Shown one piece after another: positions 15,067 through 28,022 of a stretch of 64,000 nucleotides of DNA. The notes under the pieces are model-generated. The model saw only the letters and a list, made by a program, of their open reading frames with translations, was not told where the DNA came from and searched no databases. The stretch is from Nocardia spumae (GTDB lineage: Bacteria > Actinomycetota > Actinomycetes > Mycobacteriales > Mycobacteriaceae). The position numbers and the translations under genes are program-made. How positions within the stretch are numbered: position 1 is the stretch's first letter; each line of letters begins with the position of its first letter. The stretch covers positions 3,224,001-3,288,000 of the forward strand of contig NZ_JAJFZL010000001.1 in NCBI RefSeq assembly GCF_020733635.1, read 5' to 3'.

Positions 15067-15095
15067 TTCCGCGGTGACGGGCCCCGCGGCCGTGA

Positions 15096-15776
15096 CTACC
15101 GCTGGTCTGCCCGCTGGTGTGGCTGCTCTACGTGACCGGTGTGCCCGGCCAGGAGCTTGCTGAACGGTGTCACCTCACCCAGCTGGTTACCCGACCGGCG
15201 TGGCCGGGCGGGTTCGGGCAGGAACCCCGCGACAGCGGTCGGCACCGCCACCACGAGGGCGGCGAATTCGGCGGCAGCGCGATGGATACGTTCGCCCAGT
15301 CCGGTCGATCCGAAATCCTCCGTCGCGGCGAAGACCCCGGTCGGCACCACGACTGCCCGCAGATAGGTGAACAGCGGCCGCATCGCGTGGTCGAGCACCA
15401 GCGCGTGCCGGGCGGTACCGGCGGTCGCGGCTATCAGGACCGGCATCGCGTTGAGTGCCTCGGTGTCCAGCACATCGATGAACATCTTGAACAGGCCCGA
15501 ATAGCTCGCCGCGAAGACCGGTGTGACGGCGATGAGGCCGTCGGCCGCCGACACCTTCTCCCGCGCCGCGGCCACCGCGGGTGTGGGCAGCCCGCCGGAG
15601 ACCATGGTGGCGGCGAGATCGGCAGCCAGATCCCGCAATTCGATGATCTCGATATCGACGGCCTCACCGCGCGCGGCGACCGCGGCGGAGACGGCATCGG
15701 CGAGCTGGTCGGCGAGCAGGCGCGTGCTCGACGGCTGCGACAACCCGGCGGTGAGTACGACGACAGTGTACGACAT
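15096..15776 (-). CDS. NADPH-dependent FMN reductase, partner of LLM oxygenase (CE1759-like)
   Basis: This is a flavodoxin-fold reductase of 226 aa supplying reduced FMN. The N-terminus SYTVVVLTAGLSQPSSTRLLAD is the flavin phosphate-binding loop, and ADGLIAVTPVFAASYSGLFKMFIDVLD is the family core. It sits 39 bp downstream of the LLM-class oxygenase on the same strand. That pairing is the known two-gene arrangement of the CE1758/CE1759-type systems, so the product most likely feeds reduced flavin to its neighbour. The last ~20 residues are charged and variable. Confidence 0.85.
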   Translation of the reverse strand: MSYTVVVLTAGLSQPSSTRLLADQLADAVSAAVAARGEAVDIEIIELRDLAADLAATMVSGGLPTPAVAAAREKVSAADGLIAVTPVFAASYSGLFKMFIDVLDTEALNAMPVLIAATAGTARHALVLDHAMRPLFTYLRAVVVPTGVFAATEDFGSTGLGERIHRAAAEFAALVVAVPTAVAGFLPEPARPRRSGNQLGEVTPFSKLLAGHTGHVEQPHQRADQR

Positions 15777-15815
15777 GGGTTTTCGTCCTCGTTTCGATGC
15801 TGCGGAGGTCTGTGG

Positions 15816-16955
15816 TCAAGCCTGTTCGGCGGCGGCGAGCAGCCGCTCCCGGGCCGGCTCGACCAGGTGATGCGGCGCGTCCGGTCCGGCGGCCACCAGC
15901 GAGGCGTGGGTCGGGGGATCGCTGGGAACGTGTGCGGGACGGCGCAATTCGAATTCCTTGCGCAGCACCGGCACGACTTCCTCGCCCAGGATCCGGACCT
16001 GCTCCAGCGCCACGTCGAGGGGCAGTCCCGCGTGGTCGATCAGGAACAGCTGCCGCTGGTAGTCACCGGCGTAATCGGCGAAGCCCAGTGTCCGTTCGAT
16101 GACCTGCTCCGGGGTGCCCACCGTCAGCGGCGTCATTTCGGTGAAATCCTCCAGCGACGGACCGTGCCCGTAGACCGGAGCGTTGTCGAAGTACGGCCGG
16201 AAGAACTTCTTGGCCGCGGCCTCGGTCTCGGCCATGAACACCTGCCCACCGAGTCCGACGAAGGCCTGATCGGCCGCGCCGTGACCGTAGTGCTCGAACC
16301 GCTGCCGGTACAGCCGAACCATCTGCTCGGTGTGTTCCTTGTTCCAGAAGATGTTGTTGTGGAAGAAGCCGTCACCGTAGTAGGCGGCCTGTTCGGCGAT
16401 CTCGGGGGAGCGGATGGAGCCGTGCCACACGAACGGCGGGGTGCCGTCCAGCGGTGCGGGGGTGGCGGTGAATCCCTGCAGCGGGGTGCGGAACTGGCCC
16501 TGCCAGTCGACGACGCGTTCGCGCCACAGCCGGCGCAGCAGGTGGTAGTTCTCGATCGCGAGATCGACGCCCTTGCGGATGTCCTTGCCGAACCACGGAT
16601 AGACCGGTCCGGTGTTGCCGCGTCCCATCATGAGATCGACGCGTCCGCCGGACAGGTGCTGCAGCATCGCGTAGTCCTCGGCGATCTTCACCGGATCGTT
16701 GGTGGTGATCAGCGTGGTCGAGGTCGACAGCTGCAGTTTCTCGGTGCGGGCGGCGACCCAGCCGAGCATGGTCGTGGGCGAGGAGGGCACGAACGGCGGG
16801 TTGTGGTGCTCACCGGTGGCGAACACGTCCAAGCCGACCTTCTCGGCCTCGAGTGCGAGACGCATCATCGCGTCGATGCGTTCGCCCTCGGTGGGCGCGA
16901 CGCCCGTGGTCGGGTCGACGGTGACGTCGCCGACGGTGAAGATACCGAACTGCAT
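15816..16955 (-). CDS. LLM-class flavin-dependent monooxygenase (CE1758-like)
   Basis: This is a luciferase-like monooxygenase of 379 aa, expected to use reduced FMN from the adjacent reductase and O2. The N-terminus MQFGIFTVGDVTVDPTTG and the LGWVAARTEKLQLSTSTTLITTNDPVKIAEDYAMLQHLSGGRVDLMMGRG block (about residues 64-115) are classic for the family. WHGSIRSPEIAEQAAYYGDGFF follows. ATG 16955 has a perfect AGGAGG 6 nt upstream. A GTTCA-N6-TGAAC inverted repeat lies about 28 bp upstream of the start. The substrate is unknown. Confidence 0.88.
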   Translation of the reverse strand: MQFGIFTVGDVTVDPTTGVAPTEGERIDAMMRLALEAEKVGLDVFATGEHHNPPFVPSSPTTMLGWVAARTEKLQLSTSTTLITTNDPVKIAEDYAMLQHLSGGRVDLMMGRGNTGPVYPWFGKDIRKGVDLAIENYHLLRRLWRERVVDWQGQFRTPLQGFTATPAPLDGTPPFVWHGSIRSPEIAEQAAYYGDGFFHNNIFWNKEHTEQMVRLYRQRFEHYGHGAADQAFVGLGGQVFMAETEAAAKKFFRPYFDNAPVYGHGPSLEDFTEMTPLTVGTPEQVIERTLGFADYAGDYQRQLFLIDHAGLPLDVALEQVRILGEEVVPVLRKEFELRRPAHVPSDPPTHASLVAAGPDAPHHLVEPARERLLAAAEQA

Positions 16956-16982
16956 GGCCGCCTCCTGGTTGTCTGATCAAAA

Positions 16983-16998
16983 GTTCAATCACCTGAAC
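16983..16998. promoter_or_regulatory. inverted repeat upstream of the LLM oxygenase, possible operator
   Basis: GTTCA at 16983-16987 and TGAAC at 16994-16998 form a perfect 5-bp inverted repeat with 6-nt spacing, immediately upstream of the LLM gene. No regulator gene is adjacent, so the cognate factor is unknown. Confidence 0.35.
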
Positions 16999-17269
16999 GA
17001 GGAGCCCGCCCGAGGTATTCCTTGACATGTCCACCAATTGTGAGCGGTAGTGCGCCGGCCCGCCGCGGGCAGCCACGATTCGTGGGTCGGCTCGTGCCCG
17101 ATACCCGCGGGCAGCCCCCGGCTCCGGAGGCCGGCGAGCGGGAGGCGTCCACGGTTTACCGCGGTCGGCTCGGGATACCACCGAGGTGTCGGCGAATCAT
17201 CGCATCACCCCATCGGCGGGGGAGGCGATGACCTGACTGCACGGTGGGCGCGGCGACGGCCGTGCGAAT

Positions 17270-17328
17270 GCAGGAGGACGCGCAAGCAGGAGGACGCGCA
17301 AGCAGGAGGACGCGCAAGCAGGAGGACG
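17270..17328 (+). repeat. 16-bp tandem repeat, each unit containing AGGAGG
   Basis: The unit GCAGGAGGACGCGCAA occurs three times exactly (17270-17285, 17286-17301, 17302-17317). A partial fourth copy, GCAGGAGGACG, follows at 17318-17328. Each copy carries a perfect Shine-Dalgarno core AGGAGG, at 17272, 17288, 17304 and 17320. The last copy is 8 nt upstream of ATG 17334. Because 16 is not a multiple of 3, the repeat would be read in shifting frames if translated, which argues for a role as RNA or DNA rather than as a protein repeat. Confidence 0.9.
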
Positions 17329-17333
17329 ATGAC

Positions 17334-17429
17334 ATGAGGCCCCCTGACAGAGATCCGGCGACCCCGCAAGCGATGGAACCGGATCGCAGCGCCCGCACCG
17401 AGTTCGCTATCGAAGGAGACGATCGATGA
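17334..17429 (+). CDS. putative small ORF (31 aa) behind a tandem Shine-Dalgarno array
   Basis: This is a 31-codon frame, MRPPDRDPATPQAMEPDRSA and onward, ending in TGA. It is hydrophilic and charged, with no recognised domain. Its support is positional: an ideal AGGAGG (17320-17325) lies 8 nt before ATG 17334, and its stop overlaps the start of the following small membrane ORF (ATGA). The frame could be opened further upstream from ATG 17268, through the repeat. It may be a leader peptide. Protein-level evidence is lacking. Confidence 0.35.
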   Translation: MRPPDRDPATPQAMEPDRSARTEFAIEGDDR

Positions 17430-17569
17430 GTGTTCCCAGCCTTCCGATCCGGCGCCGGCGTCATCTCGCGGTTGCGCCGTGCTACGGCCGCGGTCCCTCT
17501 GCTGTCGGCGTCTGGATCGCGTGGATCGCTTCGATACTCGTGGTGAGCGTGCTGCTGGTCGCGGTATAA
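17426..17569 (+). CDS. putative small single-pass membrane protein (47 aa)
   Basis: This is a 47-aa frame starting ATG 17426, with AAGGAG at 17413-17418 (7-nt spacing) and a 4-bp overlap with the preceding small ORF. The N-terminal half is basic (PIRRRRH). The C-terminal 21 residues (AVGVWIAWIASILVVSVLLV and one more) form a clear hydrophobic segment ending at the stop codon, so it looks like a tail-anchored or single-span peptide. No family is recognised. It faces the convergent hydrolase gene, 45 bp away. Confidence 0.45.
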   Translation: MSVPSLPIRRRRHLAVAPCYGRGPSAVGVWIAWIASILVVSVLLVAV

Positions 17570-17614
17570 CGGCGACGATCGCGCGAGGCCGCGGCTCGGC
17601 ATCGGCCCCACGGC

Positions 17615-18400
17615 TCAGCTTCCGACCAGCGCGTCGCGCAGGATAGGCAGCAGGACTTTCGCATCGGCCATATGGTCCTGAGCGTCGAGCACCCGGTAGC
17701 CCGATCCCGGTACGGCTTCGGCGATGCTGCGGGCGACATCGAGCAGACCTGCCGGACTCCGCCCGCCGGCGAGGACCTGCACGGGTACCTCGATTTCCGT
17801 GAAGCGGTCGACCGGCGGCAGGTCGGCGGTCAGGGCGATGTCGTAGCGCAGCGTGGGAGCGAGCGCTTTCATCGTCGTCCAGCCGGGAACGACCGGAAGC
17901 AGATGAACGAAGAAGCGTGGCATCCCGATGCCGCACAGGAATTGCTTTATCGCACGGCTGTTTTCGCCTCGGTCGAGCAATGAGCCGACGTGTCGGGACA
18001 GTGTCGCGTACGCGGCCCGCTCCGGTTCGTCGTGTACGTAGGACGCGTCGTAGATCACAACCCGGTCGACTTTGCGCGGCAGGCGCAGTGCCGCCTCGAG
18101 TGCGAGTGCCGCACCGGACGAATGGCCGTACAGATGTGCCCTGCCGCCGGCGGCGTCGATCATCGCCTCGACGTCCTCGATCTCGTTGGCGACTCGGTAG
18201 GGGAGGGTGTCGCCGCTGTCGCCACGGCCCCGGCGGTCGTAGGTGTACACGGTGAACGCGGTGGCGAACACCTTCGCGTCGGCCACCACCGGGCGAAAGG
18301 TGCGGAAACAGGTGGCGCCGGTGATGTAGATCAGAGCGGGCCCGTCACCGCGGACGTCGTAGGCCACGTTCGTGCCGTCCTTCGACAGTGTGGTGCGCAC
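17615..18400 (-). CDS. alpha/beta hydrolase
   Basis: This is a 261-aa alpha/beta-hydrolase-fold protein. Visible features are the oxyanion region ALIYITGATCFRTF, the YDRRGRGDSG loop, the nucleophile elbow LYGHSSGAALALEAAL with Ser in GxSxG, and a C-terminal DAQDHMADA histidine. GTG 18400 gives the start VRTTLSKDGTNVAYDVRG with AAAGGG upstream. The open frame continues far upstream, but that part is only the shadow of the next gene. The substrate is unknown. It lies 128 bp downstream of the FAD oxidoreductase on the same strand. Confidence 0.82.
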   Translation of the reverse strand: MRTTLSKDGTNVAYDVRGDGPALIYITGATCFRTFRPVVADAKVFATAFTVYTYDRRGRGDSGDTLPYRVANEIEDVEAMIDAAGGRAHLYGHSSGAALALEAALRLPRKVDRVVIYDASYVHDEPERAAYATLSRHVGSLLDRGENSRAIKQFLCGIGMPRFFVHLLPVVPGWTTMKALAPTLRYDIALTADLPPVDRFTEIEVPVQVLAGGRSPAGLLDVARSIAEAVPGSGYRVLDAQDHMADAKVLLPILRDALVGS

Positions 18401-18528
18401 GTGCCACGCCCTTTCCGGTGCTCCGTCGACGCCGCCCGGCGGCGGTCCGTGTCCTGTAGACGAGGAACAGACACGAGACTCATCGGTGCCGGCGGCATTT
18501 CGCGCCGCCGGCGAGCTCGGCGCGGCGA

Positions 18529-19983
18529 TCAGGTTCCGGGCCGGTCGCGGTAGGTCTCCAGCAGCCGTAACCAGACCTCGCTGATGGTCGGGAACGCCGG
18601 CACCGCGTGCCAGAGCCGGTCGAGTGGCACTTCGCCGGTGATGGCGATGGTCGCCGAATGCAGTAGTTCGGCCACACCGGATCCGGCGAAGGTGGCGCCG
18701 ACGATCGTCTGCCGTCGCGGGTCGATCAGGATGCGCGCTCGGCCCCGGTATTCGGGATCGTGCTGGATCGCACCCGCGACCCGGCCGATGTCGTAGTCGA
18801 CCACATCCACCGCTCGGCCGGTGCGGGCCGCCTCGGCGGTGGTGAGGCCGACGGCCGCGACCTCCGGATCGGTGAACACGACCTGCGGGACCGCCTCGTG
18901 ATCGGCGGTGGCGCTGTGCGGACTCCACCGGCGGGTGTCGAGCCGCTGCCCTCGGGCACGAGCGGCGATCACCGCCCCCGCGATCCGTGCCTGATATTTG
19001 CCCTGATGGGTGAGCAGGGCCCGGTGCGTGACGTCGCCGACCGCGTACAACCAGTCGCCGTCGACCGCATCCACGGTGAAGCTGTCGTCGGTGGTCAGCC
19101 ATTGCCCCGGGCACAGGCCGACGGTGTCCAGGCCGACATCGTCGGTGCGGGGTGCGCGTCCGGTCGCGAGGAGCAGTTGGTCCGCGATCAGCTGGGTGCC
19201 GTCGGCGAGAGTGAGACGGACGCTGTCGTCGGGTTCGCCGACGCGTTCCGTGGCGGTGATGGTGGTGTCGAATCGCAGGTCGACACCGGCTTGGCGAAGA
19301 CGGTCGGCGACCAGGTCCGCGGCGAAGTCCTCCACCCGGCCGAGTAGCCGTGATTCCCGGGCGATGAGGGTGACCCGCGCGCCCAATGCCTGCCAGGCGG
19401 CCGCCATCTCGGTGGCCACCACCCCCGCGCCGAGGATCGCGAGACGGCGCGGCACCTCCCGGGCGCTCGTGGCTTCGCGGCTGGTCCACGCCCGCACCGA
19501 GTCCAGGCCCGGTAGCGGTGGCAGGGCGGCGGTGGTGCCGGTACACACGACCACCGCGTGCCGGGCGAGCAACCGCACGGTGTCCCCGCCGGGGGTCCGG
19601 ACCGCCACCCGGCGTGGTCCGTCGAGCCGGCCGTGCCCGCGCACGACATCGACGTGGACCGATTCGAGCCAGGTGATCTGGTCGCGGTCGTCCCAGTCCG
19701 CGGTCATGCGGTCACGATGTGTCAGCACCGCGGCCGCGTCCAGCGGGCCGGTGACCGCGGTGGCGACGCCGGGGAAACGTGCGGCTTCGCGGTAGAGCAG
19801 AGCCGGGCGCAGCAGGGCCTTACTGGGCTCGCAGGCCCAGTAGGAGCATTCGCCCCCGGCCAGTTCGGATTCGACGACCACGGTGGCCAGCCCGGCGGCG
19901 CGGGTGCGGTCGGCGACGTTCTCGCCGACCGGTCCGGCCCCGATGATCACCACGTCGTAGGTGTGGATGTGCGTGTCGGACAT
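18529..19983 (-). CDS. class I pyridine nucleotide-disulfide oxidoreductase
   Basis: This is an FAD/NAD(P)-binding disulfide oxidoreductase of 484 aa, related to mercuric reductase and dihydrolipoamide dehydrogenase. It has the FAD loop DVVIIGAGPVGENVADR and the second nucleotide loop LAILGAGVVATEMAAAW. The FAD-contacting LYAVGDVTHRALLTHQGKYQ comes before a C-terminal dimerisation domain. The redox-active pair reads GGECSYWACEPSK: the C-x4-C spacing is kept, but the surrounding residues differ from the usual GGTCxNxGCxPSK. The C-terminal histidine-glutamate pair of thiol reductases is not evident (HAVPAFPTISEVWLRLLE). The in vivo substrate is open. Confidence 0.85.
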   Translation of the reverse strand: MSDTHIHTYDVVIIGAGPVGENVADRTRAAGLATVVVESELAGGECSYWACEPSKALLRPALLYREAARFPGVATAVTGPLDAAAVLTHRDRMTADWDDRDQITWLESVHVDVVRGHGRLDGPRRVAVRTPGGDTVRLLARHAVVVCTGTTAALPPLPGLDSVRAWTSREATSAREVPRRLAILGAGVVATEMAAAWQALGARVTLIARESRLLGRVEDFAADLVADRLRQAGVDLRFDTTITATERVGEPDDSVRLTLADGTQLIADQLLLATGRAPRTDDVGLDTVGLCPGQWLTTDDSFTVDAVDGDWLYAVGDVTHRALLTHQGKYQARIAGAVIAARARGQRLDTRRWSPHSATADHEAVPQVVFTDPEVAAVGLTTAEAARTGRAVDVVDYDIGRVAGAIQHDPEYRGRARILIDPRRQTIVGATFAGSGVAELLHSATIAITGEVPLDRLWHAVPAFPTISEVWLRLLETYRDRPGT

Positions 19984-20004
19984 GGGGAATCGCTTTCGCG
20001 TCGA

Positions 20005-20451
20005 TCAGCGGCCGGGGGCGCGCTGGGTGACTTCCTGCAGGAACCAGGCGTTGCCGTCCGGATCGGTGAACGCGGCGAACGAGCCGTAGCTGCGCCGCCG
20101 CGGGTCCGCGCCCGGTACCCGGCTCTCGGCGCCGGCGTGGTGGAACACGCCGGTGGCGTCACGGAACGGGCCCTCCACCACGACCCCGTGCCCGGTCAGC
20201 GCGGCGACGGCCTCCTCGATATCGGTGACGATCAGGTGGAGTCCGTGCAGGCTGCCGGGTGCGGCCTCGGTGAGGCCGGTACCGAAGATGATCGAGCACT
20301 CCGAACCGGGCGGGGTCACCTGGACGACCCGATAGCCGTCGTCGACCGGGAAGTCGGCGTCGAGCCGGAATCCGAGCTCGTCGGTATAGAAGGCCTTGGC
20401 GCGGTCGACGTCGGCGACGGGGAGTACGACGACTTCCAGCTTCATATCCAT
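20005..20451 (-). CDS. VOC (glyoxalase/bleomycin resistance) family protein
   Basis: This is a 148-aa single-chain vicinal-oxygen-chelate protein: MDMKLEVVVLPVADVDRAKAF opens the first beta-alpha-beta unit, FGTGLTEAAPGSLHGLHLIV the second, and FTDPDGNAWFLQEV is the typical C-terminal strand. ATG 20451 is preceded by AGGAGAACACATC, an excellent ribosome site, which decides the start over longer frames. It lies 21 bp upstream of the FAD oxidoreductase on the same strand and is probably co-transcribed with it. The function (isomerase, dioxygenase or binding protein) cannot be told. Confidence 0.85.
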   Translation of the reverse strand: MDMKLEVVVLPVADVDRAKAFYTDELGFRLDADFPVDDGYRVVQVTPPGSECSIIFGTGLTEAAPGSLHGLHLIVTDIEEAVAALTGHGVVVEGPFRDATGVFHHAGAESRVPGADPRRRSYGSFAAFTDPDGNAWFLQEVTQRAPGR

Positions 20452-20859
20452 GATGTGTTCTCCTGCAGCGGTTCTCGGTTGCGCTCCCCACTGTCGCCGC
20501 CCGGCGCCGCCGAACGCATCCGTCGGATGACGCTGTGCGCGACGTAATCGCCGGACCGGCCGTCGGTCCGTAGTCCTCGGGCGTTCCCCTGTGTCGTGAT
20601 CGCGCGTGCGCCCGTTCCCGTCGGGCGTCTTCATCAACGGCGCCGACGTGGCCGCGCACCGGTGCGGACTTCCGGCGCGATCGACCACGGTGCCGTCATG
20701 GTTTCGTCACCGCATTGCCCGACACGAGAGTCTCCGAGTGCGGGATGATCATCAACACGACTTCGTGCGGCAACTGCGAGCAGGGCACCGATCGGCAAGG
20801 CGGATCACACCGGACAAGGCACCTCGGACAGCAGAGGGCGACCGACGAAGGAGAACGAG
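20452..20859. other. 408-bp divergent intergenic region upstream of the CqsA-like gene
   Basis: This separates the leftward VOC gene from the rightward autoinducer-synthase-like gene and must carry both promoters. I see a strong ribosome site AAGGAG before GTG 20860. No clear operator palindrome or sigma-70 -35/-10 pair stands out. A short open frame beginning MIINTTSCGNCEQG at 20745 overlaps the next gene start and has no ribosome site. Confidence 0.4.
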
Positions 20860-21972
20860 GTGGCAACAGTCGCCGAGCGCATCCGGCAGCGCATCGATCG
20901 CGGCCGAGCAGCGGATCTGCGGGACGCCAGACTGTTCTTGTCCGCTGACACCTCCGCCGCCGACATCAGACTGTCGACCAGCGACTACCTGGCCTTATCC
21001 CGCGACAGCCGGATCACCGGCGCTATGACCGCGGCGCTGCTCGCCCCGGTCGAGTCCGGAACTCGCCCGCTGGCGCGCCGCCTGGCCGGCTACATGGGCG
21101 CCGGCGCGGCGGTGATGTGCCAGTCGGGCTGGGAGGCCAACATCGGTTTGCTGCAGGTCATAGCGGCGCCGGGAGTTCCGGTCCATATCGGCGAGTACTC
21201 CCACATGTCCTGGCGGCAGGCGGCGGCCGCCGCCGGCGCGCCGGCGCACACCTTCGCCCGCAACGATCCCGCCGAACTGGCTTCCCGGATCCACGCCCAC
21301 GGCCCGGGCATCATCGCCGTCGACGCGATCGACAACACCACGGGCGCTCGCAGCCCCCTGGCCGAGCTGTGCGACGTCGCCGACGAGACCGGCTCCGTCC
21401 TCGTGGTCGACGAATCGCATTCGCTCGGCGTCGACGGCCCGCACGGGGCCGGTGCGGTGGCCGAGCTCGGGCTGACCCAGCGGATTCCGTTCCGCACAGC
21501 CAGTCTGGCCAAGGCATTCGTCGGACGAGCCGGAGTGGTCACCGCGCTGGACCCCGATTTCGCGCCCTATTTCGAGTCGGTGGCCTACCCCGCGATCTTC
21601 TCCACGGCTCTGCGCGCCCACGACATCGCGGGCCTTTCCGCCGCGCTGGACGTGATCCGGGCCGAGGACGGCCGCCGCACCCGGCTTCGCGAGATTGCCC
21701 ACACCGTCCGCAACGCGCTCATCCACCTGGGTTCGGATATGGCGGGGGCGGACAGCCACATCGTGGCATTGCCCACCGGGACCGAAGCCGCCGGCAGAGC
21801 GGCCCGCGCGGTCCTGCAGGCGCACGGGGTGATCGGCGCCCCGTTCTGCCCGCCGGCCACCCCCCGCGGCCGCTGGCTGATCCGTCTGTCCCTGCACGCC
21901 GCGCTGACCGCCGGGCAGATCGAACGGATCATCACCGCATGCGAGCAGGTCCGCTCCCGAGCCGGACGGTGA
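20860..21972 (+). CDS. CqsA-like alpha-hydroxyketone autoinducer synthase (PLP-dependent alpha-oxoamine synthase family)
   Basis: This is a 370-aa fold-type I PLP enzyme. General alpha-oxoamine synthase features are the aspartate/histidine in LVVDESHSLGVDGPHGAG and the Schiff-base lysine in TASLAKAF. Several blocks match what I remember of Vibrio CqsA better than KAPA synthase (BioF): SGWEANIGLLQVI, HMSWRQAAAAAGAPAH, HGPGIIAVDAIDNTTGARSP, AYPAIFSTAL and the C-terminal HGVIGAPFCPPATPRGRWLI. CqsA condenses an acyl-CoA with SAM or 2-aminobutyrate to the precursor of CAI-1 signals. The N-terminal segment before RRLAGYMG seems about a dozen residues shorter than in CqsA. No CqsS/LqsS-type sensor kinase is nearby. 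GTG 20860 follows GAAGGAGAACGAG. Confidence 0.72.
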   Translation: MATVAERIRQRIDRGRAADLRDARLFLSADTSAADIRLSTSDYLALSRDSRITGAMTAALLAPVESGTRPLARRLAGYMGAGAAVMCQSGWEANIGLLQVIAAPGVPVHIGEYSHMSWRQAAAAAGAPAHTFARNDPAELASRIHAHGPGIIAVDAIDNTTGARSPLAELCDVADETGSVLVVDESHSLGVDGPHGAGAVAELGLTQRIPFRTASLAKAFVGRAGVVTALDPDFAPYFESVAYPAIFSTALRAHDIAGLSAALDVIRAEDGRRTRLREIAHTVRNALIHLGSDMAGADSHIVALPTGTEAAGRAARAVLQAHGVIGAPFCPPATPRGRWLIRLSLHAALTAGQIERIITACEQVRSRAGR

Positions 21973-22096
21973 GTCGGGGGCGCTGACCTCACCTCCCGTT
22001 CGTTCCGGCAGGCGCTGTTTGGCCTCACCGTCATCGGCTATTGCGGGAGCAGGTAGGCGGCGACTGCCGCCGACCATCTCGCGAAGGGAGACAGTC

Positions 22097-22270
22097 TTGA
22101 GCGCCACGGACAAAGCCAAGAACAAGCTCGATGATCTCGCAGGTCAGGCCAAGGAAAAGTTCGGTCAGGCGACCGGTGACAAGGACAAGAAGAATGAGGG
22201 CAAGGCCGATCAGGCCAAGTCCAATCTCAAAGACGCCGGCGAGAAGGTGAAAGACGCCTTCGACAAGTAG
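22097..22270 (+). CDS. CsbD family stress-response protein
   Basis: This is a 57-aa, highly charged, lysine-rich protein of the CsbD type, named for a sigma-B-controlled gene of Bacillus. The sequence ATDKAKNKLDDLAGQAKEK with a second imperfect repeat (KADQAKSNLKDAGEKVKDAF) matches the helical-hairpin repeat of the family. TTG 22097 is chosen because GAAGGGAG lies 7 nt upstream and the conserved region begins there. The molecular role is unknown even in model organisms. It ends before a perfect terminator hairpin. Confidence 0.85.
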   Translation: MSATDKAKNKLDDLAGQAKEKFGQATGDKDKKNEGKADQAKSNLKDAGEKVKDAFDK

Positions 22271-22327
22271 ACCCTTGTCGGCTCTTCGGTGCGCTGTTCG
22301 AGTCGCCCGATCGTAGGACCGACCGCC

Positions 22328-22357
22328 GTGGCGGGGCCGGATATCCGGCCCCGCCAC
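22328..22357. terminator. perfect 13-bp hairpin between csbD-like gene and convergent reductase
   Basis: GTGGCGGGGCCGG at 22328-22340 is the exact reverse complement of 22345-22357, with an ATAT loop; the whole 30-bp element is a perfect palindrome. It lies between convergent genes and probably acts in both directions. Confidence 0.85.
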
Positions 22358-22435
22358 ACGTGCGTTCCGGATGACCGGTCGTGGCCGGCCCGAATGACAG
22401 ACGAACATCCGCCGCACAGTGGCGGATGAGTTGTG

Positions 22436-23824
22436 TCAGCAGGTCCGGTCCGGATGATGCAGGTCCAACAGCGCGCGTTCGACGATCTCACTGGGCGCGG
22501 GATGGACCCAGAGCGGCCGCTGTGCCAGTTGCTGCGCCCGGATCCCGAAACTCATGGCCACGACGAAGATTTGGATCAGCGTCGCGGCCTGTGGGCCGAG
22601 GATATGGGCCCCGACTATCTGCCCGTCGGCGTCGGTGAGCACCTTGCAGAAGCCGGTGTCGTCCCGGCACGCCCAGCCGTAGGCGATCCGGCGATAGTGG
22701 GCGACCCCGACCCGGTAGTCGAGACCCGCTGCGCGACACTGATTCTCCGTACGGCCGACCGCGGCGATCTGCGGGGTGGTGAACACCGCCGACGGTACCG
22801 GGACGTCGTCGACCGACACCGGGTCGTCCGGATGCAGCAGGTTGTGCGCGACGACGCGGGCTTCACGGTTGGCGACGTGTTTGAGCGGCACCGTGTCGCA
22901 CGCGTCGCCCAGCGCGTAGATGCCCTCGGCGCTGGTGCGCCCGAATCGGTCGACGATCACCCCACCGTGTTCGTCGATCTCGACACCGGCCGCGGCCACT
23001 GCGAGGCGATCGGTGTTGGGGGTGCGACCCGCGGCGACCAGCAGGATGTCCGCTTCGACCGGGTCGCCGGAGTCCAGGTCGAGACGGAGCTGCCCGTCCC
23101 GCCCTGCGGCCTCGACGACTTCCGCGCCCAGGCGCAGCGCGTAGCGCTCGGTCGCGAGGGCGGTGTAGGTGGCGCGGATATCGTCGTCCTGTGCCGCGCC
23201 GAGCAACGTGTGTTGTTGCTCGATGAGCGTGATCCGGCTACCGGCGGCGGCGAAGACCTGGGCCAGTTCCGCCGCGACGTAACCGCCCCCGAGGATCGCC
23301 AGATGCCGGGGCGCCCGGCCGATCCGCATGATGGTGTCGGAGGTTTCGTAGGCCACTCCGGCTTCGCGCACCGGCGCCGGGACAGCCGGTCGTCCACCCA
23401 CGGCGATCACGATCTGTTCGGCGGTGATCTCCTCGATCCGGCCGTCGGCCCGCGATATCTCGATCGTCCGGGGGCCGCGGAACCGGGCGTGCCCCTCGTA
23501 CACCGTGACGAAATCGGACTCGATCCGGTCGCGCCGACCCGCTGCCGCGACCTTATCGGTGTGGTCGAACACTCGTGTGCTGACCTGTTCCCAGTCCAGG
23601 CCCCGGCCGTGCGCTCGGACTCCGAGAGCCGGGGCCGCTGCCAGCGAATCCACGACCTGAGCCGGATATACCAGCATCTTCGAGGGGATACATCCGAAGT
23701 TCAGGCACGTTCCGCCGAATGCGCGTTCTTCTACGATCGCCACGTCCCGTCCGGAGAACTCGTCTCCGATCACCATGTTGCCCGAACCCGCTCCCAGCAC
23801 GACCACATCGAATCGCCGCATCAC
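22436..23824 (-). CDS. mycothione reductase-like disulfide oxidoreductase
   Basis: This is a 462-aa FAD/NADPH disulfide reductase. The FAD loop reads FDVVVLGAGSGNMVIGDEFS, with the GSGN seen in mycothione reductases. The redox disulfide is in FGGTCLNFGCIPSKMLVY. NADPH binding is in LAILGGGYVAAELAQVF, FAD contacts are in IYALGDACDTVPLKHVANREARVVAHNLL, and the C-terminal base is in WVHPAPSEIVERALL. These features fit Mtr, which regenerates mycothiol, the main actinobacterial thiol; dihydrolipoamide dehydrogenase is the alternative. A second copy elsewhere in the genome cannot be excluded. GTG 23824 or ATG 23821 starts it. Confidence 0.78.
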   Translation of the reverse strand: MMRRFDVVVLGAGSGNMVIGDEFSGRDVAIVEERAFGGTCLNFGCIPSKMLVYPAQVVDSLAAAPALGVRAHGRGLDWEQVSTRVFDHTDKVAAAGRRDRIESDFVTVYEGHARFRGPRTIEISRADGRIEEITAEQIVIAVGGRPAVPAPVREAGVAYETSDTIMRIGRAPRHLAILGGGYVAAELAQVFAAAGSRITLIEQQHTLLGAAQDDDIRATYTALATERYALRLGAEVVEAAGRDGQLRLDLDSGDPVEADILLVAAGRTPNTDRLAVAAAGVEIDEHGGVIVDRFGRTSAEGIYALGDACDTVPLKHVANREARVVAHNLLHPDDPVSVDDVPVPSAVFTTPQIAAVGRTENQCRAAGLDYRVGVAHYRRIAYGWACRDDTGFCKVLTDADGQIVGAHILGPQAATLIQIFVVAMSFGIRAQQLAQRPLWVHPAPSEIVERALLDLHHPDRTC

Positions 23825-23983
23825 ACCTCGCCTGTCGTCTCGCCTCGTTCCGTCCTGAGATGACGCGATTCCCGGCTGCGGACTGTCGAAACCGAGTCGG
23901 CCGGACCGCCCCGGTGGTCGCGTGGCCGTCGGTCTGCCGGCACGGCGTTCGCGCTCGCGAACTCCAGGTGTTCCTCACACTGA

Positions 23984-24000
23984 TTCAATCAATGATTGAA
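23984..24000. promoter_or_regulatory. 17-bp palindrome, likely TetR operator
   Basis: TTCAATCA at 23984-23991 and TGATTGAA at 23993-24000 are exact reverse complements around a single A. The element is AT-rich in a GC-rich genome and ends 31 bp before the TetR start, the usual position for an autoregulatory operator. Confidence 0.65.
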
Positions 24001-24031
24001 ACCTGTTCTGTGTCGTGGTTCACTAGCGGTC

Positions 24032-24628
24032 ATGAGCGAGAAGGTGGTGTCGGGTACCAGGGAACGGCTGCTGGCGGCCGCGGAGCGGCTCCTGCTCACC
24101 GAGCGCTACGACGATGTCTCGGTGCGGGCGATCTGCACCGCCGCCGGTGCCAATCCGGCCGCGGTCCACTATCACTTCGGATCCAAGGAAGCGCTGATCG
24201 CCGCGCTGATCGAGGATCGGCTCGGACCGCTGTGGGCCGAAGGTCTGGCCGCGGCCACCGGCGCCGAACCGCGCTCGGTTCCGGCGGTCGTGGACGCGGT
24301 CATCGAGCCGTTCGTCGGGCTCGCGGCCGATCCGGTGGGCCGGTTGCATCTGCGGCTGCTGGCCGGGCTGATCCTGCGCCGGCGGCCGATGTCGTGGCAG
24401 CACGAGTGGTTCCGGATGGAGTCGTGGTCGCGGCTGCTGCCCGGACTGCCCCCCGCTGAGGGACGCCGGCGCTGGCAGCTGGCCTTCGACCTGATCATCA
24501 TGCGTTTCGGCAGCACCGAGGACTACGACATCGCACCCTCGTCGGTCGCGACATTGCGCGAATTCGTCATCGCCGGACTGACGGCCCCGCCCGGCCCGGC
24601 CCCTGCACGGACAGCCACACAGGAGTAG
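24032..24628 (+). CDS. TetR-family transcriptional regulator
   Basis: This is a 198-aa TetR repressor. The N-terminal helix-turn-helix (about residues 8-55) reads TRERLLAAAERLLLTERYDD, then VRAICTAAGANPAAVHYHFG and SKEALIAALIEDR; the C-terminal half is a helical ligand pocket. ATG 24032 is chosen because the conserved helix begins just after it and the 17-bp palindrome lies upstream. It is followed 2 bp later by the old-yellow-enzyme gene and then an SDR, so it probably controls an operon of which it is the first gene. The inducer is unknown. Confidence 0.88.
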   Translation: MSEKVVSGTRERLLAAAERLLLTERYDDVSVRAICTAAGANPAAVHYHFGSKEALIAALIEDRLGPLWAEGLAAATGAEPRSVPAVVDAVIEPFVGLAADPVGRLHLRLLAGLILRRRPMSWQHEWFRMESWSRLLPGLPPAEGRRRWQLAFDLIIMRFGSTEDYDIAPSSVATLREFVIAGLTAPPGPAPARTATQE

Positions 24629-24630
24629 CA

Positions 24631-25815
24631 GTGAACGATATCTTCGAACCCGTCGATCTGGGCCCGATCACCTTGCGCAACAGGGTGATCAAGGCCGCCA
24701 CCTTCGAAGGCCGGACCCCCGAGGCGCTGGTCACCGACGAACTCATCGACTTCCACCGGGAGATGGCGGCCGGCGGGCTCGGGATGAGTACCGTCGCCTA
24801 CTGCGCGACCGCGCCGGGCGGCCGCACCGATCGCCACCAGATCTGGATGCGCCCCGCGGCGGTTCCGGGCCTGCGGCGGCTCACCGATGCCATTCACGCC
24901 GAGGGGGCCAAAGCCAGCGCTCAGATCGGTCACGCCGGACCGGTCGCCAACGCCGCCTCCAATCAGGCTCCGACGCTGGCGCCCACCCGATTGCTGTCGC
25001 CGCTGAGTATGAAGATGATGCAGTCGCCGTCGGTGGCCGAGATCCAGGATCTGGTCGCCGCGCACGCCCGGGCGGCCCTGCTGGCCGAAGAGGCCGGATT
25101 CGACGCCGTGGAACTGCATTTCGGTCACAACTATCTGGTCAGCTCGTTCCTGAGTCCGCTGCTGAATCGGCGCAAGGACGGCTACGGCGGGTCGCTGGCC
25201 AACCGCGCCCGCATGGCCCGCGAGATCGCCACCGCGGTGCGCGAGGCCGTCGGTGGCCGCCTCGCGATTCTGGCCAAGCTGAATATGGAAGACGGTGTGC
25301 GCGGCGGCTTCTCACTCGCCGAATCGATTCGGGTCGCGTCCTGGCTCGAGGCCGACGGCGGACTGGACGCCCTCGAGCTCACCGCGGGCAGTTCGCTGCT
25401 CAATCCCATGCTCTACTTCCACGGCGATGCGCCGCGGCAGGCGTTCGCCAAAGTCCTGCCCGGCCCGGCGCGGTTCGGCTTCAGGCTCATCGGCAAGGCT
25501 TTTCTGCGCGAATACCCGTATCACGGAACGTATCTGCTCGAGCGCGCCCGCCAGTTCCGGCGCGAATTGTCGATGCCGCTGATCCTGCTCGGCGGGGTCA
25601 CCGATATCGACGATATGGAGCGGGCGCGGCGCGAGGGATTCGAATTCGTCGCCATGGGCCGTGCGCTGCTGCGGGAACCCGATCTGCTGCAACGGATCCG
25701 CTTCGACGCCACCACCCGCTCGGCCTGCATCCACTGCAACGAATGTATGCCGAGCATCTACACCGGCACCCGATGTGTCCTGCGGTTGCACGGGCCCGCC
25801 GTGCCCGCGAGCTGA
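24631..25815 (+). CDS. NADH:flavin oxidoreductase (old yellow enzyme family)
   Basis: This is a 394-aa TIM-barrel FMN enzyme reducing activated C=C bonds or related substrates. It starts VNDIFEPVDLGPITLRNRVI, typical for the family. HFGHNYLVSSFLSPLLNRRK with DGYGGSLANRARMAREI is the core FMN/substrate motif, and ILLGGVTDIDDMERAREGF-like sequence forms the phosphate site. A C-terminal cysteine group (CIHCNECM ... TRC) resembles the Fe-S-binding motif of 2,4-dienoyl-CoA reductase relatives. GTG 24631 follows AGGAG and lies 2 bp after the tetR stop. Confidence 0.85.
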   Translation: MNDIFEPVDLGPITLRNRVIKAATFEGRTPEALVTDELIDFHREMAAGGLGMSTVAYCATAPGGRTDRHQIWMRPAAVPGLRRLTDAIHAEGAKASAQIGHAGPVANAASNQAPTLAPTRLLSPLSMKMMQSPSVAEIQDLVAAHARAALLAEEAGFDAVELHFGHNYLVSSFLSPLLNRRKDGYGGSLANRARMAREIATAVREAVGGRLAILAKLNMEDGVRGGFSLAESIRVASWLEADGGLDALELTAGSSLLNPMLYFHGDAPRQAFAKVLPGPARFGFRLIGKAFLREYPYHGTYLLERARQFRRELSMPLILLGGVTDIDDMERARREGFEFVAMGRALLREPDLLQRIRFDATTRSACIHCNECMPSIYTGTRCVLRLHGPAVPAS

Positions 25816-25861
25816 TTCCCGCACCGATCACCGGCGACAGTTGAGAGAGCGAGAGATATTC

Positions 25862-26608
25862 ATGAGTGGACGTTTAGCCGGACGAGTCGCCCTGATCAGC
25901 GGCGGTGCCTCGGGTATGGGCGCCTCCCACGCGCGGGCCTTCGTGGCCGAGGGGGCGCGGGTGATGCTGGGTGATATCGCCGACGACGCGGGGCGCGCGC
26001 TGGCCGCCGAACTCGGTGAACACGCCGCCTACGTGCACCTCGACGTCACCGAGTCCACCGATTGGGAGGCCGCGGTCGCCGCGACCGTCGAACGGTTCGG
26101 CCGGTTGAACGTCCTGGTCAACAATGCGGGCGTGCTCGACGGCGGGCCGCTGGGCACCTACACCGAGAAGCAGTGGCAGCGGGTCATCGATATCAACCTG
26201 ACCGGTCCGTTCCTGGGCTTGAGCGCCGCCCGCGACGCACTGGTGGCCGCCCGGCCCGCCGCGGTGGTCAATATCTCCTCCGCCGCCGGGATGCAGGGCG
26301 TCGGCGGGATGCACGGCTATACCGCGTCCAAATTCGGGGTGCGGGGTCTGACCAAGTCGGCCGCGCTGGAACTCGCGCCCGAGGGCGTGCGGGTCAACTC
26401 GGTGCATCCCGGCGGCATCATGACCCCCATGATCGGTGTCACCGGGGAGGTCGTGGTCGATCGCGCCGACAATGTGCGCGCCCGGCTGGGAATGCCCGGT
26501 GAGGTGTCGGATGTGGTGGTCTTTCTGGCCAGTACCGAATCCAGCTACTGCACCGGTGCGGAATTCGTCGTCGACGGCGGCATGACGGCCGGTTCGGTGG
26601 TGGGCTGA
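25862..26608 (+). CDS. SDR-family NAD(P)-dependent oxidoreductase
   Basis: This is a 248-aa classical short-chain dehydrogenase. The cofactor loop is ALISGGASGMGASHARAF (an SGGASGMG variant of TGxxxGxG). NNAG is in VLVNNAGVLDGG, the catalytic serine in VVNISSAAGMQG, and the tyrosine/lysine pair in YTASKFG. The C-terminus VDGGMTAGSVVG is typical. It resembles 3-alpha(20-beta)-hydroxysteroid dehydrogenases, but the substrate is not proven. ATG 25862 sits 46 bp after the old-yellow-enzyme gene; the two may act in sequence on one substrate. Confidence 0.88.
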   Translation: MSGRLAGRVALISGGASGMGASHARAFVAEGARVMLGDIADDAGRALAAELGEHAAYVHLDVTESTDWEAAVAATVERFGRLNVLVNNAGVLDGGPLGTYTEKQWQRVIDINLTGPFLGLSAARDALVAARPAAVVNISSAAGMQGVGGMHGYTASKFGVRGLTKSAALELAPEGVRVNSVHPGGIMTPMIGVTGEVVVDRADNVRARLGMPGEVSDVVVFLASTESSYCTGAEFVVDGGMTAGSVVG

Positions 26609-26629
26609 GCATCCGCATAAACTGTCGGC

Positions 26630-26863
26630 ATGGAAATGTTCCTGGATATCCTCCTGGTGATCACCAGCGTGTTGCTGGTGCTGCTGGTGTTGTTGCACCG
26701 TGCGAAGGGTGGAGGCTTGTCCAGCCTGTTCGGTGGCGGTGTGCAGTCGAGCCTGTCCGGATCCACGGTGGTCGAGAAGAACCTCGACCGCATCACCATT
26801 TTCGTGGGCCTGATCTGGTTCATCGCCGTCATCGGTATCGGCTTCGAGATCAAGTTCGCCTGA
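26630..26863 (+). CDS. secG: preprotein translocase subunit SecG
   Basis: SecG is the small auxiliary subunit of the SecYEG membrane channel. The 77-aa product has two membrane segments (about 4-23 and 55-74) joined by the diagnostic loop RAKGGGLSSLFGGGVQSSLS. In most actinobacteria secG directly follows tpiA; here it lies 16 kb away, at the right border of the accessory block. ATG 26630 starts it 21 bp after the SDR stop. Its 3' end overlaps the convergent MFS gene by 14 bp. Confidence 0.95.
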   Translation: MEMFLDILLVITSVLLVLLVLLHRAKGGGLSSLFGGGVQSSLSGSTVVEKNLDRITIFVGLIWFIAVIGIGFEIKFA

Positions 26864-28022
26864 CCGGGGCAGGCGGTTCCGCGTCGGCGGGACCGCCGCG
26901 ACTCCGCCGGCGCGGCACGATCGCCAGCGCCGCACCGGCGGCCACCACCAGAGTCACCGCCGCGATGGTGAACGCGGCGTCGTAGCTGTCTCCCAGTACC
27001 GGTGCCACGACCAGCGGCCCGAGCATCTGACCCAGCCCGTAGCCGGCGGTCAGCGTCGCCGCCGCCCCCGGTCCGGCCAGATCGCTGCCGATTTCCAGGG
27101 CCAGCAGCGTGATGCCCATGAAGGTCGCGCCGAACAGCGCCGCCGAGACGACCGCGGGCCAGATACCGGCCGACAGTGCGGGCAGCAGAGCCGAGACGGT
27201 CTGCAGAAGGAGCGCGCAGACCAGCGCCACCGCCGGGGTCATCCGGCGCGCCATCGCACCCCAGACGATCGTCGCCGGCGCCGCGGCGAGGCCCACCACG
27301 ATCCAGATCGCGGTTCCGGCCGCGCGGTGACCCGCCGCATCGACCGCGGCGACGAGGAATGTGCCCAGCACGATATAGCCGACGCCCTCGAGGAAATAGG
27401 TCAGCTGCAGCAACCGCCACGAGCTCCGCACACGTACCGTCGCCGCCCCCGTGCGGGTACCGCCGCGAATATCGAGACTCAGTGCGGGCCACACCAGCAC
27501 GGCGGTGAGCGCGGCCGAGGCCAGCCACAGTGCCTGCCACGACAGCGCCGATTGCGCGATCAGAACGAGCGCGCCCGTGGCCGCGATGCCCGACCCGACG
27601 CCGGCGAAGGCGATACCCGCCGCGCGCCTGCGATTTTCGTGACGGGCGGCGATCTGGGCGCAGCCGATGAACAACACCGCGCTGGCGATACCGGCGATCA
27701 CCCGCAGAACCACCGGAAACAGTGTCGGCGCGGGGACGGCCATCGCCGCCTCGCTCAGGATCAGCGCCGCACCGGCCACGCGAAAAGCGCTGCGGCCCTG
27801 ATATTCCGGAAATCTCGCCGCTGCCACCGCGCCGATGAGGTAGCCGGCGTAGTTGGCGGCGGCGACGACCGCTCCGGTATGGGCACTGAGCCGTCCGGCG
27901 TCGATCATCACCGGCAGTAGCGGCGTGAAGGCGAAACGGCCGATTCCCATGGCCGCGGCCAAACCCGCCGAGGCGCGCAGCGCGGGCGCCAAGGAGGCGT
28001 GTCGGGTGGGTGCGATGGTCAC
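26850..28022 (-). CDS. MFS transporter (YbfB/YjiJ-like)
   Basis: This is a 390-aa integral membrane protein with about twelve hydrophobic segments. The N-terminal part ALRASAGLAAAMGIGRFAFT followed by PLLPVM resembles the YbfB/YjiJ group of major facilitator transporters. Midway a short charged loop (DIRGGTRTGAATVRVRSS) separates the two six-helix halves. GTG 28022 starts it. It is divergent from a LysR gene, 70 bp apart, its likely regulator. The substrate is unknown; arabinose- or drug-type efflux are only guesses. Confidence 0.82.
   Translation of the reverse strand: MTIAPTRHASLAPALRASAGLAAAMGIGRFAFTPLLPVMIDAGRLSAHTGAVVAAANYAGYLIGAVAAARFPEYQGRSAFRVAGAALILSEAAMAVPAPTLFPVVLRVIAGIASAVLFIGCAQIAARHENRRRAAGIAFAGVGSGIAATGALVLIAQSALSWQALWLASAALTAVLVWPALSLDIRGGTRTGAATVRVRSSWRLLQLTYFLEGVGYIVLGTFLVAAVDAAGHRAAGTAIWIVVGLAAAPATIVWGAMARRMTPAVALVCALLLQTVSALLPALSAGIWPAVVSAALFGATFMGITLLALEIGSDLAGPGAAATLTAGYGLGQMLGPLVVAPVLGDSYDAAFTIAAVTLVVAAGAALAIVPRRRSRGGPADAEPPAPVRRT

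Follow-up and report, generated by a model that had tools for sequence, protein, structure and literature searches.

We examined a 64,000-nucleotide stretch of the Nocardia spumae genome (contig NZ_JAJFZL010000001.1, positions 3,224,001 to 3,288,000; hereafter the window), in which an orphan cqsA-type gene encodes a protein that, judged from its sequence and a structure model, descends from the CqsA clade of alpha-oxoamine synthases, has their fold, retains a complete pyridoxal 5'-phosphate (PLP) site, and has lost the stretch that gates substrate entry in related enzymes. All six motifs that a preliminary description of this DNA had quoted for a CqsA-like enzyme are present in the translation, and the host, which it had placed among the actinobacteria, is a Nocardia. 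In the alignment, the start and N-terminus (MATVAERVQ...) are common to relatives. The features of the gene are as follows:

20848..20853, + strand: likely ribosome-binding site AAGGAG, read from the sequence, six bases before the start
20860..21972, + strand: orphan CqsA-clade alpha-oxoamine synthase gene, an open reading frame (ORF) of 370 amino acids with a GTG start
21049..21054, + strand: codons 64-65, the junction at which, by alignment, the protein lacks the stretch that gates substrates in other alpha-oxoamine synthases
21202..21204, + strand: codon of H115, a PLP-pocket histidine by alignment
21409..21411, + strand: codon of D184, the VDESH aspartate by alignment
21418..21420, + strand: codon of H187, by alignment
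21511..21513, + strand: codon of K218, the PLP Schiff-base lysine and sole lysine of the protein
21883..21885, + strand: codon of R342, aligned by manual count with the substrate-carboxylate arginine R366 of ThAOS (thermophilic alpha-oxoamine synthase)

The gene product belongs to the CqsA clade

Among the NCBIfam models, the CqsA-type model NF005526 scored best (359.6 bits, E 1.6e-107), followed by bioF (158.9 bits) and a serine palmitoyltransferase (SPT) model (152.3 bits), in line with the earlier impression that the protein resembles CqsA more than BioF or SPT. CqsA and LqsA, the enzymes described by NF005526, produce the alpha-hydroxyketone signals of Vibrio and Legionella. Neither the curated cut-off of NF005526 (428 bits) nor that of the BioF model TIGR00858 (426.45 bits) was reached. 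Among solved structures, V. cholerae CqsA matched best (243.5 bits; next Kbl, 105.4), and the protein has the fold of solved members of the alpha-oxoamine synthase superfamily. Upon building a maximum-likelihood tree of 80 rows, with an outgroup of five synthases as root (two BioF, one HemA, and two of other kinds, some on long branches), we found that the 75 CqsA-type rows form one clade (100/100) apart from the outgroup, within which the window protein is nested successively in clades of 62 rows, largely actinobacterial (98/96), of 18 Nocardia rows (99/98), and of 7 rows (100/100). Its nearest named relatives, 75-77% identical, come from N. mikamii, N. aobensis, N. kruczakiae, N. elegans, N. 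nova, and Nocardia sp. BSTN01. The outgroup held no SPT or Kbl, and the evidence against membership in those families comes from the hidden Markov model (HMM) scores and not from the tree.

A place inside BioF, which the preliminary description had named as counting against its proposal, was not found in the tree, where the two BioF rows fall outside the clade. No biotin gene context was found at 20860-21972; instead, the genome has a bioF-like gene at another site (C1:4617380; bioF as best model with 397.9 bits, likewise under its cut-off of 426.45), with neighbors that pass bioA (597.4 bits, cut-off 494) and bioD (101 bits, cut-off 83.3). As the tree excludes BioF and HemA and the bioF-like gene with bioA and bioD sits elsewhere, that objection fails. 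A third alpha-oxoamine synthase gene (C1:5496989-5498011, L003) adjoins an ORF that scores best, below the respective cut-offs, with polyketide synthase models, and probably belongs to a polyketide cluster. Another Nocardia genome (G135) holds a second CqsA-type copy (L065), 42% identical to the window protein, which groups with L087 among mostly proteobacterial rows and is possibly misplaced there, given the long branches. Phage records yielded 14 matches, of which the five listed are ~26% identical and two are annotated as Kbl.

The substrate-gating stretch is missing

The deletion of a dozen residues in the substrate region, proposed in the preliminary description, is real: from I52 to A76 the window protein counts 25 residues, as do its six sister species, whereas the copies from Vibrio, Cupriavidus, and Tistrella have 37, so that it is 12 residues shorter at the substrate loop than Vibrio CqsA (PDB 2wk7, 2wk8, 2wk9, 3hqt). 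In a 26-row alignment, the gap spans the ThAOS stretch AGSGAVRTIAGT (PDB 7poa, 8s1y), the valine of which we identified as V79 from the one-residue difference between these two entries. The loop was present in all BioF, HemA, ThAOS, and proteobacterial CqsA rows and absent from several other actinobacterial rows. According to the published ThAOS work, the V79 stretch is mainly a gate for the amino-acid substrate rather than an acyl-chain selector, and replacement of V79 by small residues widened the amino-acid range and somewhat extended the acyl range as well. Hence, while the altered acyl-chain choice suggested earlier is possible, a changed amino donor is better founded.

The PLP site is complete and the gene is under purifying selection

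Besides H115, D184, H187, K218, and R342, the protein also keeps S215. PMC8301110 lists 14 PLP-pocket residues for a CqsA model based on entry 3kki; 13 of these are the same in the window protein and in Vibrio CqsA, one is changed from S to T, and the missing loop is not among the 14 listed there. The K218 column is the only one with a lysine in all rows of the 7-row clade, and the invariance of this sole lysine points to continued selection for the Schiff base. Using the Nei-Gojobori method, we obtained a ratio of nonsynonymous to synonymous substitution rates (dN/dS) of 0.225 in this clade (bootstrap 0.181-0.284; 7 sequences, 346 codons), showing that the gene is under purifying selection. 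As regards the chemistry of the family, a review (PMC10491745) states that CqsA takes S-adenosylmethionine (SAM) as its biosynthetic amino substrate, which is condensed with an acyl-CoA and decarboxylated.

No CqsS-type sensor was found by profile in 148 Nocardia genomes

We searched for a receptor with a profile of the CqsS/JqsS sensor domain, built from two sequences (V. campbellii and Cupriavidus) and not including LqsS, and obtained no match in 148 Nocardia genomes, that of the window included. Positive controls outside the training set were recovered, namely a Vibrio record (6.5e-84) and a more distant Tistrella plasmid (2.5e-27). A search of the window's genome with full-length CqsS gave 28 matches, which all involve its kinase or receiver portions (from query residue 178 on) and all lie outside the window, so that the earlier statement that the window lacks a CqsS-type sensor is confirmed and, by profile, extends to the whole genome. 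Among the best 80 of 544 cqsA-type loci confirmed from a genome scan and ranked by likeness to the query, to which the counts in 25 actinobacterial and 55 non-actinobacterial loci given below also refer, a CqsS sensor lay in the fetched stretch in 42 of 47 Pseudomonadota and 5 of 7 Chlorobiota, and in 0 of 25 Actinomycetota and 0 of 1 cyanobacterium; some of these stretches end at contig edges, and the whole-genome receptor search among actinobacteria covered Nocardia only. A kinase- or receiver-like ORF of some sort was near cqsA in 9 of the 25 actinobacterial loci, and a tie to some other type of sensor may be conceivable.

We rejected the cqsA of a Tistrella plasmid as a precedent for a receptor-less gene: no sensor lies within 6 kb, but a CqsS-type sensor is found ~34 kb away on the same plasmid. 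As receptors thus need not adjoin cqsA, we take the whole-genome search, and not the neighborhood count, as the main receptor evidence. This plasmid, Tistrella mobilis pTM3 (L075/L189), is typed as conjugative and, with its cqsA-type gene and sensor domain, possibly carries a transferable signal circuit.

The window gene differs from the known systems. Compared with Vibrio CqsA, it has no CqsS partner that we could find and scores below the curated value of the family. Compared with the JqsA system of Janthinobacterium and Cupriavidus, in which jqsA is encoded beside jqsS (PMC3566124), the protein shares 45.9% identity with the Cupriavidus copy across 89% of the query, whereas the adjoining JqsS and the intact loop of the Cupriavidus locus (L074) are both missing. 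With the actinobacterial relatives (Nocardia, Herbidospora, Streptomyces, Actinomadura), nearly all of which fall in its clade, it shares the lack of a nearby CqsS sensor (none in the fetched stretch of 25 of 25 loci); unlike the window protein, many of them keep the full loop and some Nocardia copies are without the PLP lysine.

Loop and lysine have been lost repeatedly among actinobacterial relatives

Upon inspecting 40 Nocardia copies, we found a loop of 30 residues or fewer in 18, a full loop in 21, and one copy without the region, while 8 copies had no PLP lysine and 6 had N in place of H115. A short loop occurred in 16 of the 25 actinobacterial loci, a figure biased upwards by the ranking of loci by likeness to the query, and in none of the 55 non-actinobacterial loci (31 or fewer residues), all of which keep the lysine. 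On a separate 80-row tree, made without the loop and lysine columns and with a loop cut of 30 of our own choice, the fewest changes amount to three loop shortenings, two H to N changes, and four losses of the lysine, which became T, A, G, or N. By the first tree, we place the loop shortenings in the 18-row clade of the window protein, a second Nocardia clade, and Herbidospora. The lysine-less relatives comprise K to T (L051, L061, L063, L069, L072), K to G (L052, L054, in a clade that keeps the full loop), K to A (L067, which holds only the part after residue 162 of the full-length relative P0021), and K to N (P0095, a metagenome protein inside the largely actinobacterial clade). The two H115 to N events gave rise to copies that keep the lysine (L045, L050, L053, L064, L070, L071). 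In Herbidospora (L116, L118, L119, L121, L137), one species has a loop of 36 residues and four have loops of 23-28, with much the same gene order in loci of both loop states.

The lysine-less genes are not decaying where this was measured: dN/dS was 0.158 (0.116-0.205) in the K to T clade (n=5) and 0.104 in one K to G pair, compared with 0.204 in lysine-bearing siblings (n=5). A kept lysine-less member of the superfamily is known in SPTLC1/LCB1, a subunit of SPT (PMC6148460). This precedent bears on the lysine-less cousins only, as the window protein keeps its lysine, and SPTLC1/LCB1 needs a lysine-bearing partner, whereas the eight Nocardia genomes with a lysine-less copy gave one match each above 200 bits. 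The lysine is absent from 17 of 119 other listed proteins, 12 of which are named "alpha-hydroxyketone-type quorum-sensing autoinducer synthase" or "CAI-1 autoinducer synthase", and both lysine-less proteins that we tested, at 437.7 and 435.9 bits, pass the NF005526 cut-off, although the window protein, whose PLP site is complete, stays below it.

Distribution and gene neighborhood

The gene is no singular find, since relatives above 220 bits occur in 41 of 150 Nocardia genomes at 42 places (G135 has two), many of them already named autoinducer synthases by NCBI. In a class-wide draw, 6 of 394 genomes had a match (E <= 1e-40), including that of the window. The genes at the flanks of 20860-21972 agree with the preliminary description as regards the VOC protein, the two reductases, and the CsbD protein:

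18529-19983, - strand: pyridine-nucleotide-disulfide reductase, on the VOC side
20005-20451, - strand: VOC protein, the neighbor on one side
22097-22270, + strand: CsbD protein, the neighbor on the other side
22436-23824, - strand: second pyridine-nucleotide-disulfide reductase, on the CsbD side

As the reductase beside cqsA matches eight close relatives at 37% at best, the DNA around the gene is probably accessory. Considered as signs of a mobile element, the repeats around the gene proved short and imperfect, and no RNA family was found at gathering thresholds in 15000-28000.

Across 40 of the 42 Nocardia copies (G107 was not included, and the partial G069 copy stayed outside the clusters), cqsA falls in several unrelated neighborhoods. 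Clustering of the neighbors of these copies and of 27 actinobacterial loci, 26 of which fell in the CqsA cluster, yielded no partner common to all, and we rejected the idea of a conserved partner. In the six sister species, cqsA lies beside or at most two genes from a block of a DUF2064 gene, a glycosyltransferase, an unassigned protein, and an epimerase, and five of these six loci also have a response regulator and a kinase; in four further Nocardia, cqsA stands at the opposite end of this block. In total, ten Nocardia loci have the DUF2064/family-2 glycosyltransferase block near cqsA, with a response regulator and a kinase called in nine. We did not take the block as a dedicated receptor, because 95 of 150 genomes carry its unassigned marker gene, mostly with no cqsA in the vicinity; the window's genome has this marker ~783 kb from cqsA.

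A solute-binding lipoprotein with an extra C-terminal part follows cqsA on the same strand in five loci of differing neighborhood (L049, 10329-12760; L052; L054; L055; L060), with a 4-base overlap of the two genes in L049 and L060. It was rejected as a partner, since full-length copies occur in genomes without cqsA (e.g., G003, G099, G132); the window's genome has two matches, and the listed one spans residues 27-263 out of 400. All five K to T copies (L072:3764-6341; L051, L061, L063, L069) lie between a divergent response-regulator/kinase pair and a HAMP kinase; this second kinase stands end to end with the K to T copy, and a second regulator comes next in three loci. Such a setting could reflect a tie to a sensor or the chance of one shared locus.

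Proposed function and alternatives

We somewhat favor the view that the gene encodes a CqsA-clade alpha-oxoamine synthase, active in decarboxylating condensation, with a changed amino donor and a product that is not read by a CqsS circuit. Such a PLP-dependent synthase, parted from the CqsS signaling circuit, would join an acyl-CoA to an amino acid or to vinylglycine derived from SAM and, by way of an external aldimine and a quinonoid, yield a decarboxylated alpha-aminoketone. With the gating loop gone, its amino donor may be different from, or looser than, that of Vibrio CqsA, and the product would be used not in CqsS quorum sensing but in metabolism or in some other role unrelated to CqsS. 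Aminoketones can be converted to hydroxyketones or pyrazines. The enzyme has probably been put to another use rather than serving as a signal maker. The earlier label of an orphan autoinducer synthase thus holds as regards the CqsA clade and the missing receptor, and it is not supported as regards a working autoinducer synthase: because no CqsS-type receptor was found, the score stays under the curated cut-off, and the loop is missing, we do not file the protein as an alpha-hydroxyketone autoinducer synthase and regard it as a CqsA relative by descent.

Several points weigh against an active synthase with a changed donor. The loop loss may cripple catalysis, as the BioF, HemA, ThAOS, and proteobacterial CqsA rows of the 26-row alignment all keep the loop; related Nocardia copies have lost even the PLP lysine; the cqsA neighborhood is not conserved and yields no pathway; and the structure model is a monomer without ligand, while the active site lies between two subunits. 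The protein may instead be non-catalytic or barely catalytic, following the same path as its lysine-less Nocardia relatives and kept to bind a ligand (PLP, acyl-CoA, aminoketone) or a partner protein. We consider this rather unlikely: the lost loop and the four lysine losses in related lineages, with their dN/dS values of 0.158 (K to T) and 0.104 (K to G pair), speak for it, whereas the window clade keeps all PLP residues, and K218 as the only lysine is hard to explain without Schiff-base selection. Somewhat less probable still is a genuine alpha-hydroxyketone quorum-sensing synthase with a receptor of another, unrecognized type. It would fit the CqsA clade membership, the response regulator and histidine kinase in the block next to five of six sister loci, and the regulator/kinase pair and second kinase around all five K to T loci, but it sits poorly with the absence of a CqsS-type sensor from the profile search of 148 Nocardia genomes, with a block marker that is widespread, mostly remote from cqsA, and distant in the window's genome, and with the loss of the substrate loop.

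That the gene is in decay, recently freed of its function and not yet broken, seems improbable to us. Its patchy presence (41 of 150 genomes) and unstable gene order, the partial copies in G069 and G024 (in the latter, only the portion beyond residue 162 of the closely related P0021 was found), and the in-frame TGA in the open frame of the G130 copy point in this direction; against it, the window and all six sister species have an intact gene, the dN/dS of 0.225 is far below 1, the PLP site is complete, and the ribosome-binding site is a good one. An ordinary BioF, Kbl, SPT, or ALAS enzyme, for which the common superfamily and bioF as second-best HMM (158.9 bits) might argue, is already contradicted and highly improbable in view of the 200-bit score gap, the exclusion of BioF and HemA by the tree, and the bioF-like gene (397.9 bits) with bioA and bioD neighbors elsewhere in the genome.

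Extending the proposal of an active synthase with a changed donor to the Actinomycetota, we tentatively suggest, as a doubtful generalization, that the loss of CqsS allowed CqsA to be rebuilt, with at least three loop losses leading to new substrate ranges and at least four lysine losses leading to pseudoenzymes kept for ligand binding or regulation. If true, a family of signal makers would be evolving, for the most part inside a single genus, into other enzymes and perhaps also into sensors.

Relation to earlier work

We found no study of a CqsA relative in Nocardia in the open-licence literature, where papers containing both CqsA and Nocardia concern a fish vaccine and shark jelly; in a review of quorum sensing in Actinobacteria (PMC4748050), the terms CqsA, hydroxyketone, and CAI-1 do not occur. 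As the gene family is already annotated in databases, what is new is limited to the variant and the pattern. An actinobacterial CqsA-type gene alone is no evidence of alpha-hydroxyketone quorum sensing, and a misreading of database names is likely. Nocardia and Herbidospora hold both loop states and hence offer a natural test of the role of the gating loop in alpha-oxoamine synthases, and the relatives together form a natural series from enzyme to possible pseudoenzyme within a well-known signaling family. Elsewhere in the window, a 743-codon ORF at 12799-15030 (- strand) fuses an E1 dehydrogenase domain with pyrimidine-binding and C-terminal domains of the transketolase type.
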